Positions 1-25,833 of a stretch of DNA of 25,833 nt are shown one piece after another. The position numbers and the translations under genes are program-made. This DNA comes from a virus. The stretch covers positions 1 to 25,833 of IMG/VR virus record IMGVR_UViG_3300033999_000354; one strand, written 5' to 3'. Each line of letters opens with the position of its first letter. The first letter of the stretch is position 1. The notes beneath the pieces are model-generated. The model saw only the letters and a program-made list of their open reading frames with translations. It was not told the DNA's origin and did no database searches.

Positions 1-1188
1 ATGCAAACATCAATCGTGGTAGTGTATAACTATAAGAATAAGAAATTGTCAAAAGATGACACTGCGCCAATTCATTTATTAATCCAATCACGAATTAACG
101 GAAAGCGATATCGAAAGTATATCAGAACGCCTTTTGAGGTTAAAAAAAGTCAATTTGATGACAACAAGAAAGAAGTTAAAAACCACACGCAGGCTTATGC
201 TATCAATAAGGCATTAAGAGATAAGGTTAAAGATATAACAGATTTCTTATATAATCTTGCTGCAGAAGGAAAGGAGTTGACAGAAGAGTCAATTAATGCT
301 TTTTTGAATAATAACGAAGAAGATAGCGTTGATTTTATTTCGTTCTATGAAAACAATATTGACAAATATCTAAAACGTGGCACCACAAAAGAACATTATT
401 ATACACTAAATGTATTAAAGGAATTCAGAAACAGGATACCATTTAAGGCTATTAATCTTAAATTGATAATGGAAATTGACAACTTCCTTAAGGGGAAGGG
501 TTTCATGAAGAATACTATATACAAACATCATCAGCACATTAAACGATTCCTTAAAATTGCAGAAATGCAAGGCTTATTTGACGTGAAAAACAATCCATAT
601 CAGCACTTCAAAGTTTCAAAGGAAAAAAGCGAAAGAACAAACATAACTGCTAAAGAATTAGAGAGAATCGAACAGTTAGATTATGATGAAAATTTCTATG
701 ACCTTAAACTTGCAAAAGATTTATTTCTGTTCAGTTGTTATACAGGCTTGCGCTTTTCTGACGTTCAAACATTAGAAAAATCGCATATTAAAGATAGCGC
801 AGAAGGTTTGGTCATTGTTAAAAGAATGGAAAAAGTACCAAAACCGATTGTTTTACCACTCGATTTGCTGTTTGAAGGCAAACCGAAAATAATTATACAA
901 GAGTACTTAGAACGGACTAACGGGGATAGAGTATTTCCTGAAGTATCTAATCAGCACATTAATAGATTGCTAAAAACAATTGCTTATGATGCAAAGATTA
1001 AAACCAGACTTACATTTCACGTTGCAAGACACACATTCGGTTCGCTACTTGCCGAAATAACACAAAATCCCTACTTAATCATGAACCTTATGGGACACGC
1101 TGACATCGACACAAGTATGATATACATACATCTTAGTCAAGAGCGCATTAATAGGCAGTTGAGAACAATTAACTGGAAGTTGGATTAA
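1..1188 (+). CDS. Tyrosine recombinase (phage integrase)
   Basis: This 395-residue protein is a site-specific tyrosine recombinase that should integrate and excise the element. It has an N-terminal arm-binding domain typical of Bacteroidota integrases (about residues 1-95), a SAM-like core-binding domain (about 110-205) and a C-terminal catalytic domain (about 215-385). Visible catalytic residues are Arg251 in TGLRFSD, His340 and Arg343 in HVARHTF, His366 in LMGHAD and the nucleophile Tyr375 in MIYIHLS, so it looks intact. The window begins exactly at its ATG, so its promoter and the left attachment site are not visible. A set of 11-bp-spaced direct repeats and a perfect-palindrome terminator follow the stop codon. 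Its position at one extreme end fits an integrated element. Confidence 0.95.
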   Translation: MQTSIVVVYNYKNKKLSKDDTAPIHLLIQSRINGKRYRKYIRTPFEVKKSQFDDNKKEVKNHTQAYAINKALRDKVKDITDFLYNLAAEGKELTEESINAFLNNNEEDSVDFISFYENNIDKYLKRGTTKEHYYTLNVLKEFRNRIPFKAINLKLIMEIDNFLKGKGFMKNTIYKHHQHIKRFLKIAEMQGLFDVKNNPYQHFKVSKEKSERTNITAKELERIEQLDYDENFYDLKLAKDLFLFSCYTGLRFSDVQTLEKSHIKDSAEGLVIVKRMEKVPKPIVLPLDLLFEGKPKIIIQEYLERTNGDRVFPEVSNQHINRLLKTIAYDAKIKTRLTFHVARHTFGSLLAEITQNPYLIMNLMGHADIDTSMIYIHLSQERINRQLRTINWKLD

Positions 1189-15963: not shown

Positions 15964-16218
15964 ATGAAAAATCTTTTTTTTAGAGACATTACATTGAATG
16001 GGTTAGCACCATCAATAATTGAGGAAGACGAAAACGGAATAACTTATTTTGGATATTGCAAGTTTAATTGTTCGTCAGAGTATGAGAACGCTTGGGCAAT
16101 TAAGCGCATCCAAACAATTGGAAACATCACTTACACAAAGTGGGCAGAAGGTTCTGTAAATTTCAATTTAAAATGGAGTGATAGAAAATCTTATTCTTAC
16201 AAATTCGCAAAATTTTAA
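15964..16218 (+). CDS. Small phage-type protein upstream of the receptor-binding-like protein
   Basis: The 84-residue product is beta-rich (TYFGYCKFNCSSEYENAWAI, KRIQTIGNITYTKWAEGSVN, FNLKWSDRKSYSYKF). Its run of 'FGYC..., W.IKR...IGN, ...W.DR...Y' resembles a small protein common in Bacteroidota phage genomes near host-recognition genes. Its function is not known. It begins after a terminator, so it needs its own promoter or readthrough, and it lies 4 bp before the next gene. Confidence 0.65.
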   Translation: MKNLFFRDITLNGLAPSIIEEDENGITYFGYCKFNCSSEYENAWAIKRIQTIGNITYTKWAEGSVNFNLKWSDRKSYSYKFAKF

Positions 16219-16222
16219 TAAG

Positions 16223-17884
16223 ATGAAAAAGATTGTTATTAGTTTATTGTTAACTCTATTTTCAATATGCGCTGTTTTTTCGCAAGACTTAGAGTATAAA
16301 CTCAATAAAAGAACTGCAAAATACGACTTAGTGAGGTCGGAAAATTGGCTTCAAGGTGTTATCGATAGAGTAAAAACCTTAAAAAAAGGAGACATTGATA
16401 GCATATCATCAGAGGTTGGAACTGGAATACTGAAAGTTGAAGCAGGTGGAAAACTGACTACAGCAATTTCGGGAGTTGATTATGTAACAAAAGAATATAT
16501 CATTAAAAAAGGAGACATTGATAGCATATCATCAGAGGTTGGAACTGGAATGCTGAAAGTTGACGCAGGTGGAAAACTGACTACAGCAATTTCGGGAGTT
16601 GATTATGTAACAAAAGAATATATCATTAAAAAAGGAGACATTGATAGCATATCATCAGAGGTTGGAACTGGAGTGTTGAAAGTTGGTGCAGGTGGAAAAC
16701 TGACGATTGACGACAGATTCTTTATTTCAGGAATCGGTAACTCGAATATGGTTGCATATTTTAAAAGCAACTTTGAAATTAAAAGCACACCAACAATGTT
16801 ACTTGACCATAATCATAACAGAGTTGGGATAGGTTGTAAAACCCCGTGGGTATCAAAGTATAAATTAGAAGTAAATGGAGACATAGGTGTAAAAAAACTA
16901 TATATAAATGATGTTGAGTTTAAAAAACAAAATATTGATTCATTGACAACAAGTTTAAACACTGGATTGCTAAAAATTGAAGGCGGAACAGGTAAGTTAA
17001 GTAATGCAATTGCTGGAGTTGATTATTTAGCACCTACGTCAAACAACATTACAGGTAGTGGCACCGCTACATATATACCAATGTTTAGTGGTTCAAATGT
17101 ATTAAGTAATTCACCACTAAGGGTAAACAACACATCAATAATGATGAGTTCAGTTTCAGGAAATATACAATCATCAAGATTTTCAACATTTTTTGGCAAT
17201 ACAGGTGATATGCAAATATTTACACGAAGTCCAACTGCACCAGTACTCATTGGTTATGCAAATACAACAAATACATCTTTGACAACTGAAATAGCACGTT
17301 TTCAAAATGGTAGATTGCTTATTGGTGGCGGACTCACAACACCATTATTTAGATTACAACTTAATGGAACTGGACAAACCAATGGAATTAAATTAGGAAC
17401 AACAACAGGAACATCAAGCGTAGGAACTATTTACACTACAAGTGGCTCAGATTTAGTTTTAAATGGGAATGTTATAATCAATAATAACAATCCAAAACAT
17501 GTAGAATTTACAAATCAAAATGGTGAATTATACATTAACACAAATGGAAATTTTGACTTTCAAGAAGCTGTAGGATTATCGAAAGAACATGACGAATTCA
17601 TTGCAGGGTTTGATTATTACTATAACGAATATTTATTTGGCAATGGTAACCTTAGGATTCCTACTTGGAGTCGTTCAGGAGTTATTATCGAATCATTGCA
17701 AGGCTCGCTAACAGATGATGCACCCACTTTAAGTCAGATTAATGCTATAGTTGGAAGAACTGCTACAAGTGCTGGTCGTGGATATCAAGTCACTATATTT
17801 GATACAGACGGTTCAAAAAAGGCATACCATATAGTTTCAGATGGCGCAAATTGGCATTATACAGTAATGACTAAAGCCTTATAA
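16223..17884 (+). CDS. Secreted repeat-bearing receptor-binding or adhesin-like protein
   Basis: Starting at the ATG at 16223 (an in-frame ATG at 16178 lies inside the previous gene) gives 553 residues beginning with a clear signal peptide (MKKIVISLLLTLFSICAVFS, cut probably before QD). Then come three tandem 41-residue repeats (KKGDIDSISSEVGTG..LKV.AGGKL..AISGVDYVTKEYII), a diverged fourth copy (SLNTGLLKIEGGTGKLSNAI onward), and Gly/Thr/Ser-rich beta segments. The C-terminal end (PTLSQINAIVGRTATSAGRG, then IVSDGANWHYTVM) resembles the ends of Bacteroidota phage fibre proteins. This suggests an elongated host-recognition protein. A signal peptide is unusual for a cytoplasmically assembled virion part; an exported conversion adhesin is an alternative. 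Confidence 0.75.
   Translation: MKKIVISLLLTLFSICAVFSQDLEYKLNKRTAKYDLVRSENWLQGVIDRVKTLKKGDIDSISSEVGTGILKVEAGGKLTTAISGVDYVTKEYIIKKGDIDSISSEVGTGMLKVDAGGKLTTAISGVDYVTKEYIIKKGDIDSISSEVGTGVLKVGAGGKLTIDDRFFISGIGNSNMVAYFKSNFEIKSTPTMLLDHNHNRVGIGCKTPWVSKYKLEVNGDIGVKKLYINDVEFKKQNIDSLTTSLNTGLLKIEGGTGKLSNAIAGVDYLAPTSNNITGSGTATYIPMFSGSNVLSNSPLRVNNTSIMMSSVSGNIQSSRFSTFFGNTGDMQIFTRSPTAPVLIGYANTTNTSLTTEIARFQNGRLLIGGGLTTPLFRLQLNGTGQTNGIKLGTTTGTSSVGTIYTTSGSDLVLNGNVIINNNNPKHVEFTNQNGELYINTNGNFDFQEAVGLSKEHDEFIAGFDYYYNEYLFGNGNLRIPTWSRSGVIIESLQGSLTDDAPTLSQINAIVGRTATSAGRGYQVTIFDTDGSKKAYHIVSDGANWHYTVMTKAL
16388..16704 (+). repeat. In-frame 123-bp tandem repeats in the receptor-binding-like gene
   Basis: Two full 123-bp units (16388-16510, 16511-16633) and a partial third (16634-16704) are nearly identical at the DNA level. 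Most differences fall in a short stretch encoding GIL/GML/GVL and KVE/KVD/KVG, so the expansion is recent and the substitutions are clustered. Confidence 0.9.
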
Positions 17885-25130: not shown

Positions 25131-25147
25131 AGCACCACCCCGACTGG

Positions 25148-25177
25148 AAGGGAGGCTATAACGGCCTCCCTTTTTTT
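25148..25177 (+). terminator. Array terminator, first of seven
   Basis: AAGGGAGGC (25148-25156), loop TATAACG, GCCTCCCTT (25164-25172), then a T run to 25177. The same stem recurs at 25260, 25372, 25484, 25593, 25701 and 25812; the loop is identical in every complete copy, and the last is truncated by the window end. Confidence 0.9.
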
Positions 25178-25181
25178 ATTT

Positions 25182-25255
25182 ACACAACATTCACAGCTTG
25201 GTAGCGCATCCCGATCGGGTCGGGAGGGTCGGCTTTCAGTATCGCACCACCCCGA
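25182..25255 (+). pseudogene. tRNA-Pro-like segment A, anticodon CGG
   Basis: Using tRNA numbering, D-loop AGCTTGGTAGCGC, anticodon stem TCCCG/CGGGA (25209-25213 and 25221-25225), loop ATCGGGT, a 5-base variable loop and the 3' strand CACCCCG with discriminator A at 25255 all sit at canonical spacing. The 5' acceptor strand, the D-stem and the T-stem do not pair, and there is no CCA, so it is not a working tRNA as drawn. Confidence 0.55.
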
Positions 25256-25293
25256 CTGGAAGGGAGGCTATAACGGCCTCCCTTTTTTTATTT

Positions 25294-25367
25294 CCACAAC
25301 ATTCACAGCCTGGTAGCGCATCCCGACCGGGTCGGGAGGGTCGGCTTTCAGCATCGCACCACCCCGA
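25294..25367 (+). pseudogene. tRNA-Pro-like segment B, anticodon CGG
   Basis: Same layout; anticodon loop ACCGGGT at 25326-25332. Position 33 is C rather than the nearly universal T. Confidence 0.5.
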
Positions 25368-25405
25368 CTGGAAGGGAGGCTATAACGGCCTCCCTTTTTT
25401 TATTT

Positions 25406-25479
25406 ACACAACATTCACAGCTTGGTAGCGCATCCCGATCGGGTCGGGAGGGTCGGCTTTCAGCACCGCACCACCCCGA
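25406..25479 (+). pseudogene. tRNA-Pro-like segment C, anticodon CGG
   Basis: Same layout; loop ATCGGGT at 25438-25444, with T at position 33. Discriminator A at 25479. Confidence 0.5.
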
Positions 25480-25514
25480 CTGGAAGGGAGGCTATAACGG
25501 CCTCCCTTTTTTTT

Positions 25515-25588
25515 TCGCAACATTCACAGCTTGGTAGCGCATCCCGACTGGGTCGGGAGGACCGGCTTTCTGTGTCGAACCTCCCCGA
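25515..25588 (+). pseudogene. tRNA-Pro-like segment D, anticodon TGG
   Basis: Same layout; loop ACTGGGT at 25547-25553. The T-arm region differs here (GTGTCGAACC), the closest of the six to a normal T-loop, but its stem still does not pair. Confidence 0.5.
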
Positions 25589-25622
25589 CTGGAAGGGAGG
25601 CTATAACGGCCTCCCTTTTTTT

Positions 25623-25696
25623 TTGCAACATTCACAGCTTGGTAGCGCATCCCGACTGGGTCGGGAGGACCGGCTTTCAGCATCGCACCACCCCGA
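25623..25696 (+). pseudogene. tRNA-Pro-like segment E, anticodon TGG
   Basis: Same layout; loop ACTGGGT at 25655-25661, discriminator A at 25696. Confidence 0.5.
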
Positions 25697-25733
25697 CTGG
25701 AAGGGAGGCTATAACGGCCTCCCTTTTTTATTT

Positions 25734-25807
25734 TCGCAACATTCACAGCTTGGTAGCGCATCCCGACTGGGTCGGGAGGGTCGGCTTTCAGCATCGCACC
25801 ACCCCGA
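25734..25807 (+). pseudogene. tRNA-Pro-like segment F, anticodon TGG
   Basis: Same layout; loop ACTGGGT at 25766-25772, discriminator A at 25807. It is followed by the truncated seventh terminator. Confidence 0.5.
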
Positions 25808-25833
25808 CTGGAAGGGAGGCTATAACGGCCTCC

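Follow-up and report, generated by a model that had tools for sequence, protein, structure and literature searches.

What is the tandem array that closes this record of viral DNA, and to which genome does it belong? The window, that is, the stretch of DNA analyzed here, is the whole of a linear IMG/VR record of 25,833 bp, which opens with the start codon of an integrase gene and ends in an array that runs off the contig. This array (25131-25833) is made up of six 17-nt hairpins (TCCCGAYYGGGTCGGGA) and seven 3' ends of a tRNA-Pro with their terminators, and a single terminator, AAGGGAGGCTATAACGGCCTCCC(T)n, is common to all seven of the 3' ends. In each hairpin, TCCCG and CGGGA enclose a loop, which reads ATCGGGT, ACCGGGT, and ATCGGGT in the first three units and ACTGGGT in the remaining three, and successive units are spaced at 112, 112, 109, 108, and 111 bp (range 108-112).

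All of the units lie on the plus strand. The first (25178-25289) carries a D-arm strand (25200-25208), followed by the hairpin (25209-25225), the tRNA 3' end (25246-25259), and the terminator (25260-25289). The order of hairpin, 3' end, and terminator is repeated in the second unit (25290-25401; hairpin 25321-25337, 3' end 25358-25371, terminator 25372-25401), the third (25402-25515; 25433-25449, 25470-25483, and 25484-25515), the fourth (25516-25624; 25542-25558, 25579-25592, with the 3' end ACCTCCCCGACTGG, and 25593-25624), and the fifth (25625-25729; 25650-25666, 25687-25700, and 25701-25729), while in the sixth (25730-25833), the hairpin (25761-25777) and 3' end (25798-25811) are followed by a terminator cut by the end of the record.

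The tandem array reported in the preliminary description is thus confirmed, with its repeated hairpins and terminated tRNA-Pro 3' ends, and the hairpin sequences bear out the observation that three units read CGG and the next three TGG, with differences at positions 33 and 34 only. The constant spacing from position 32 to position 73 also holds within the window. The count of six units is correct for the hairpins, but the segment at 25131-25177, the first of the seven 3' ends with its terminator, has no hairpin. The units pass unrecognized by tRNA models, given that ARAGORN found no tRNA in the array and an Rfam scan recovered no tRNA match up to E 10, with matches at chance level only, whereas their alignment with tRNA-Pro is strong. 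One window unit scored 75 against an array unit of a Bacteroidota genome (G313), in comparison with 9.4 ± 1.7 (maximum 16) for dinucleotide shuffles, and 54 against the intact tRNA-Pro of this genome and its terminator (shuffles 9.2 ± 1.6), so the proposed homology with tRNA-Pro stands.

In G313, a chromosome contig of 3.2 Mb, a tRNA-Ser is followed by an intact tRNA-Pro(TGG) and then by eight units of 111 bp, which share their terminator with the window units. The alignment score and this common terminator identify the window array as that of the tRNA-Pro in a relative of the G313 lineage. A second intact tRNA-Pro(TGG), with three or more units of 110 bp behind it, was found through a scan for the hairpin in a Bacteroidia MAG contig from Lac Pavin (L008), so that the intact gene and the further arrays, for which a search had been suggested, are both present in relatives. 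The L008 units reproduce the tRNA from its D-loop onward, including the 3' end and the terminator, with the arm CCTGGTTTGGGACCAGG swapped for TCCCGACTGGGTCGGGA, and here, as in L016, the tandem repeats lie directly behind the tRNA gene, each ending in the 3' end of that tRNA. On this comparison, the window units are 3'-half copies of a tRNA-Pro, which would originally have lain downstream from an intact tRNA-Pro; this intact gene falls outside the record, and the window units were placed with the partial copies beside intact tRNAs through their homology with the units of G313 and L008. In the array units, the native anticodon arm (CCTGCTTTGGGAGCAGG to TCCCGACYGGGTCGGGA) has been substituted by a foreign hairpin, as in copies of many other isotypes, which contradicts the earlier reading of a preserved anticodon arm. 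The suggestion of tandemly amplified, decaying tRNA copies is therefore sound with regard to the 3'-half copies, but not to the arm, which was replaced. Nor is the Pro-type loop of 7 nt the conserved feature, since G313 has hairpins of both 17 nt and 18 nt (TCCCGACTGGAGTCGGGA), with differences in both loop length and triplet.

The position of the array at the end of a virus record can be accounted for by a single phage attachment junction. A tyrosine integrase gene of the prophage (1-1188, plus strand; PF00589, PF13102, and PF17293, PHROG integrase) is cut on its left at the start codon, and in six of nine loci of its relatives (30-38% identity), a tRNA gene (Ala, Arg in three cases, Lys, or Asp) lies just upstream on the same strand. 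At the other end of the prophage, the segment at 25131-25177 (plus strand), which contains the tRNA-Pro 3' end ACCACCCCGACTGG (25134-25147) and a terminator, matches the 3' end and terminator of the G313 tRNA-Pro, and is joined directly to AT-rich phage DNA. This junction, together with the tRNAs beside the integrase relatives, points to a putative attR, formed when a prophage was inserted at the tRNA-Pro 3' end, with host DNA from there on, although its placement is provisional because the left border of the prophage was trimmed off the record, which begins at the integrase start codon. The array is thus most likely host DNA lying beyond the attR.

The prophage itself (window 1-25060) encodes the integrase, an excisionase-like protein, a DnaJ-domain protein, a transglutaminase-like protein, a VanY-type endolysin, and an N6 DNA methylase, as well as a Strawberry-notch-type helicase of 1434 aa. 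A 568-aa protein (window 16178-17884), with three copies of the block KKGDIDSISSEVGTGxLKVxAGGKLTxAISGVDYVTKEYI and the look of a tail fibre or spike, has no PHROG match, and the 20 window proteins scanned against PHROGs included no recognizable portal, large terminase, or tail protein. Relatives of the integrase and of a 236-aa phage protein were absent from the viral contigs searched, and a single-sequence structure model of the latter was uninformative (mean pLDDT 32). The prophage may be an unusual, perhaps tailless, virus of the Bacteroidota. Scans of a viral collection for the array motifs found nothing, and a BLAST search of the array against phages and plasmids returned short, weak matches only, one of them to an annotated tRNA-Pro in an Aeromonas phage.

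In one family, the tRNA-Ser/tRNA-Pro locus exists as both empty and occupied sites, ranging from no units in five genomes (G235, G409, G402, G413, and G415) through one unit in G407, with the stem CCACGCC, and several in G405 and G025, where the stem is TCCCGCC, to eight in G313, where it is TCCCGAC, all of these units being devoid of ORFs. In L008 (approximately 500-560, minus strand), a different integrase gene lies upstream of the tRNA-Pro, with an apparent tRNA-Ser 3' end between the two, and the tRNA-Ser/tRNA-Pro locus may be an integration hot spot.

Hairpin-armed half-tRNAs are not restricted to tRNA-Pro. The pattern GCATCCCGAN{2,9}TCGGGAGG was found in 54 of 393 genomes of the order, compared with one match to the reversed control, and nearly all of the sites inspected were partial tRNA copies, most commonly of tRNA-Val, with Lys, Pro, Phe, Ala, Gly, Asn, Arg, and Met also being represented. 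These copies have two mirror forms, both of which retain the arm plus approximately 10 nt beyond it. A copy upstream of the intact tRNA consists of the leader and 5' half, the hairpin, and then only some 6-10 nt, and a downstream copy consists of only some 10-13 nt, the hairpin, and the 3' half with its terminator. Both forms can be repeated in tandem. At one locus (L112), for example, an intact tRNA-Val is flanked by five upstream units of 77 bp and three downstream units of 371 bp.

In a set of 53 partial copies, chosen by their similarity to a tRNA or a GIY-YIG gene with the hairpin ignored, inverted repeats of 6 bp or more without a mismatch are present in 83%, against 3.4% in shuffles, and the native arm was kept in only two, one a second tRNA copy beside an N-masked stretch and the other with the hairpin in its T-arm. 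The structure and position of the hairpin are mostly maintained while its sequence changes, with 27 different stems among the 53 copies (TCCCGAC, TCCCGCC, CTCCGAC, TGGCGCC, and CCACGCC, for example), and in copies of tRNA-Asn and tRNA-Ser it is shifted by some bases. Two stricter rules failed: a requirement for one specific palindrome is contradicted by the 27 stems, and the preservation of the local anticodon by the loop, which fitted Pro, Val, and Ala, broke down in the larger set, in which the loops are free.

Some individual cases depart from the usual arrangement. In G139 (L042 and L043), the palindrome TCCCGATAACTATCGGGA is located in the D-loop, rather than the anticodon arm, of tRNA-Gly-like and tRNA-Pro-like copies, and some other copies have palindromes in their D- or T-loops. 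In two neighbouring tRNA-Ala half-copies of L037 (1629-1649 and 1755-1775), the core of one hairpin is the exact reverse complement of the other (GACCTGCCGGTC and GACCGGCAGGTC), as if inverted. The tRNA-Cys(GCA) genes called by ARAGORN in L038 (1466-1540) and L039 (1459-1533) coincide with hairpin-armed tRNA-Val half-copies with the loop TGCAA, and are likely to represent false annotation in public genomes.

Many of the downstream copies contain, behind the tRNA terminator and ahead of the hairpin, an ORF of approximately 80-100 aa, the final codons of which in several cases enter the tRNA copy and the hairpin (..SEHPD, with the stop in the loop). The encoded protein has a GIY-YIG domain (PF01541, E 1e-16), belongs to the UPF0213 type (PDB 1ywl and 1zg2), and is present in 62 of 99 sampled Bacteroidota genomes, often in several copies. 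An intact tRNA was located within 400 nt of the GIY-YIG gene at 48 of 70 loci (25 of the 30 best and 23 of 40 lower-ranking loci), always on the same strand, whereas 20 control stretches situated 20 kb away held one tRNA altogether and no partial copy. A tRNA lies no more than 1.2 kb from 67 of 103 distinct GIY-YIG genes, upstream in 60 cases, typically at some 50 nt, and downstream in seven. The nuclease tree also clusters by tRNA isotype, with 22 changes against 38.9 in shuffles (none of 200 as low), a signal to which near-copies of the nuclease genes contribute. The remaining 22 of the 70 loci, with a whole clade among them, have no close tRNA, and the nuclease tree contains one clade of 13 genes that lack a tRNA nearby. 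At L128 (G218:C13), at least five GIY-YIG genes are arranged in tandem with a period of 395 bp, each followed by a hairpin and a tRNA half, and an intact tRNA was absent from the 5.7 kb examined.

The full form of this element accordingly comprises an intact tRNA, a terminator, the GIY-YIG gene, approximately 11 nt of D-arm strand, the hairpin, the 3' half, and a second terminator, and it has a mirror form with 5' halves upstream of the tRNA. The window array would probably be host DNA at a prophage border in a tRNA-Pro and, at the same time, an ORF-less tandem form of this tRNA-linked element of the Bacteroidota, a reading that is favored with moderate confidence. It can be called the ORF-less form only, because no GIY-YIG gene was found among the window proteins scanned, and the plus strand of the array contains no ORF of 80 aa or more. 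Since this gene is also missing from the tRNA-Pro arrays of G313, G001, G280, G405, and G025, the array would be linked to the nuclease element solely by its design. Other Bacteroidota do have tRNA-Pro loci with a GIY-YIG gene (L153, L154, L182, and L189).

The sequences themselves show the copies, their swapped arms, the linkage to the nuclease, the clustering by isotype, and the empty and occupied sites, and a possible mechanism can be outlined from this arrangement. Whether encoded in cis or supplied by a copy elsewhere in the genome, the nuclease would cut tRNA genes at the anticodon arm or close to it. Recombinational repair would then copy in or amplify its gene along with half of a tRNA, and an intact tRNA would be left every time. 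The hairpin in the surplus copy could remove the cut site, or might block reversion to, or confusion with, the working gene, and the ORF-less window array would be at most a derivative, possibly driven in trans. In its broadest version, this would be a phylum-wide mobile element formed by a minimal GIY-YIG nuclease and a half tRNA, which cuts the anticodon arm, spares or supplies one working tRNA, and stamps the surplus halves with a palindrome that makes them immune or inert, with the ORF-less units being amplified in trans. This broader version is tentative, and is held with less than even confidence. One point against the element model is that the intact tRNA beside the nuclease gene keeps its native arm, which leaves self-immunity unexplained.

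The main rival is plain tandem duplication of the tRNA 3' end and terminator, by slippage or unequal crossing-over, in the manner of the tyrT/rtT repeats of Escherichia coli, followed by decay and by the later invasion of this non-functional DNA by REP-like neutral palindromes, with the nuclease as a bystander. The absence of the nuclease gene from the window and G313 arrays is consistent with this account. Palindromes of the type TCCCGA..TCGGGA are also over-represented genome-wide in several of these genomes, including G001 (62, against one in the reversed control) and G139 (81 against 16), which suggests that the replacements may be derived from a general palindrome process, and the palindromes in the D-loops of G139 and the D- and T-loops of some other copies are equally in its favor. 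Against it, the palindrome takes the place of the arm instead of extending it, and does so at one position in copies of many isotypes, the 5'- and 3'-half forms share their core, and the linkage between GIY-YIG genes and tRNAs is isotype-specific and far above chance. This rival is considered unlikely, although it must be taken seriously.

Attachment-site copies were suggested previously as the source of the array, and they could be attP/attB cores left by repeated prophage insertions or a cluster of integrase sites carried by the phage. The array does close a provirus that encodes a tyrosine integrase, whose relatives adjoin tRNAs, and the dyads of anticodon arms resemble integrase core sites. 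Prophage attachment in tRNA genes also leaves displaced tRNA 3' ends beside an intact tRNA, and this explains the segment at 25131, but it does not account for the tandem units, swapped arms, or 5'-half copies. The G313 array exists without a prophage in the 12 kb examined around it, and neither an integrase nor a prophage was seen in the stretches examined around the G405 and G025 arrays. In addition, the units are exact short tandem repeats with terminators, and their arms are swapped on both sides, which is impossible by a single crossover. As an explanation of the array, attachment sites are thus already disfavored, and very improbable. An equally slim probability is given to transcribed small RNAs acting as decoys of the anticodon arm, against an anticodon nuclease, for example, given that the perfect stem-loop at the position of this arm and the strong terminator of each unit, which would suit such a role, are countered by the free variation in loop length (3-9 nt) and triplet, the frequent loss of the D- and T-arms, minimum-energy folds of the window units with no tRNA-like shape, the location of the downstream units behind terminators, and the absence of the Bacteroidota promoter motif TANNTTTG from the array.

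The tRNA-linked nuclease element can also be compared with known systems. The rtT repeats downstream of tyrT in Escherichia coli are tandem repeats, each with a short tRNA 3' end, and resemble the present arrays in being located behind a tRNA gene and carrying its 3' end. They are not known to have a swapped anticodon arm, a mirror 5' form, or a nuclease gene. The REP/RAYT systems are similar in that short palindromes spread through the genome, whereas the present palindrome stands in for one particular arm of the tRNA copies, and no Y1 (HUH) transposase gene was identified among the window proteins scanned. The UPF0213/YhbQ-type GIY-YIG proteins (PDB 1ywl and 1zg2; PF01541) belong to the same family by sequence, and no description of a tRNA-linked element or half-tRNA footprint was found for them in the literature.

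A documented precedent is SegB, a GIY-YIG enzyme of phage T6, in which double-strand breaks and recombination amplify a tRNA locus in tandem (PMC13096335). In this free-standing homing endonuclease of T4 and T6, as in the Bacteroidota, the GIY-YIG gene adjoins tRNA genes and tRNA segments are amplified in tandem, but SegB is phage-borne and the segment amplified in T6 has a full-length tRNA-Tyr, whereas the enzymes described here are small, chromosomal, UPF0213-like, and tied to many isotypes. Half-tRNAs with a palindromic anticodon arm are not mentioned in the portion of the SegB paper drawn on here (PMC13096335). A nuclease gene adjoining its putative target, as in SegB, is found in the family (the 48 of 70 loci within 400 nt), but not in the window. 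The tRNA and homing passages of a survey of the GIY-YIG superfamily (PMC1564403) do not mention the arrangement, and it is likewise undescribed in the open-licence literature searched for GIY-YIG genes beside tRNA genes, UPF0213/COG2827/YhbQ, and tRNA-fragment repeats. The tRNA-linked nuclease element is thus apparently undescribed in this literature, and may have been noticed elsewhere.

No description was found of a role for the small UPF0213-like GIY-YIG genes, and their linkage offers them a likely target, the tRNA genes, a footprint, the half-tRNAs with a palindromic arm, and an activity that can be tested. If confirmed, this would add a class of tRNA-linked nuclease elements that are chromosomal and specific for tRNA isotypes, and would explain some of the tRNA pseudogenes and of the tandem repeats with which contigs end, as well as miscalled genes like the 'tRNA-Cys' of L038 and L039. 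The half-tRNA copies also provide a natural series of hairpin replacements for the study of the spread of palindromes.
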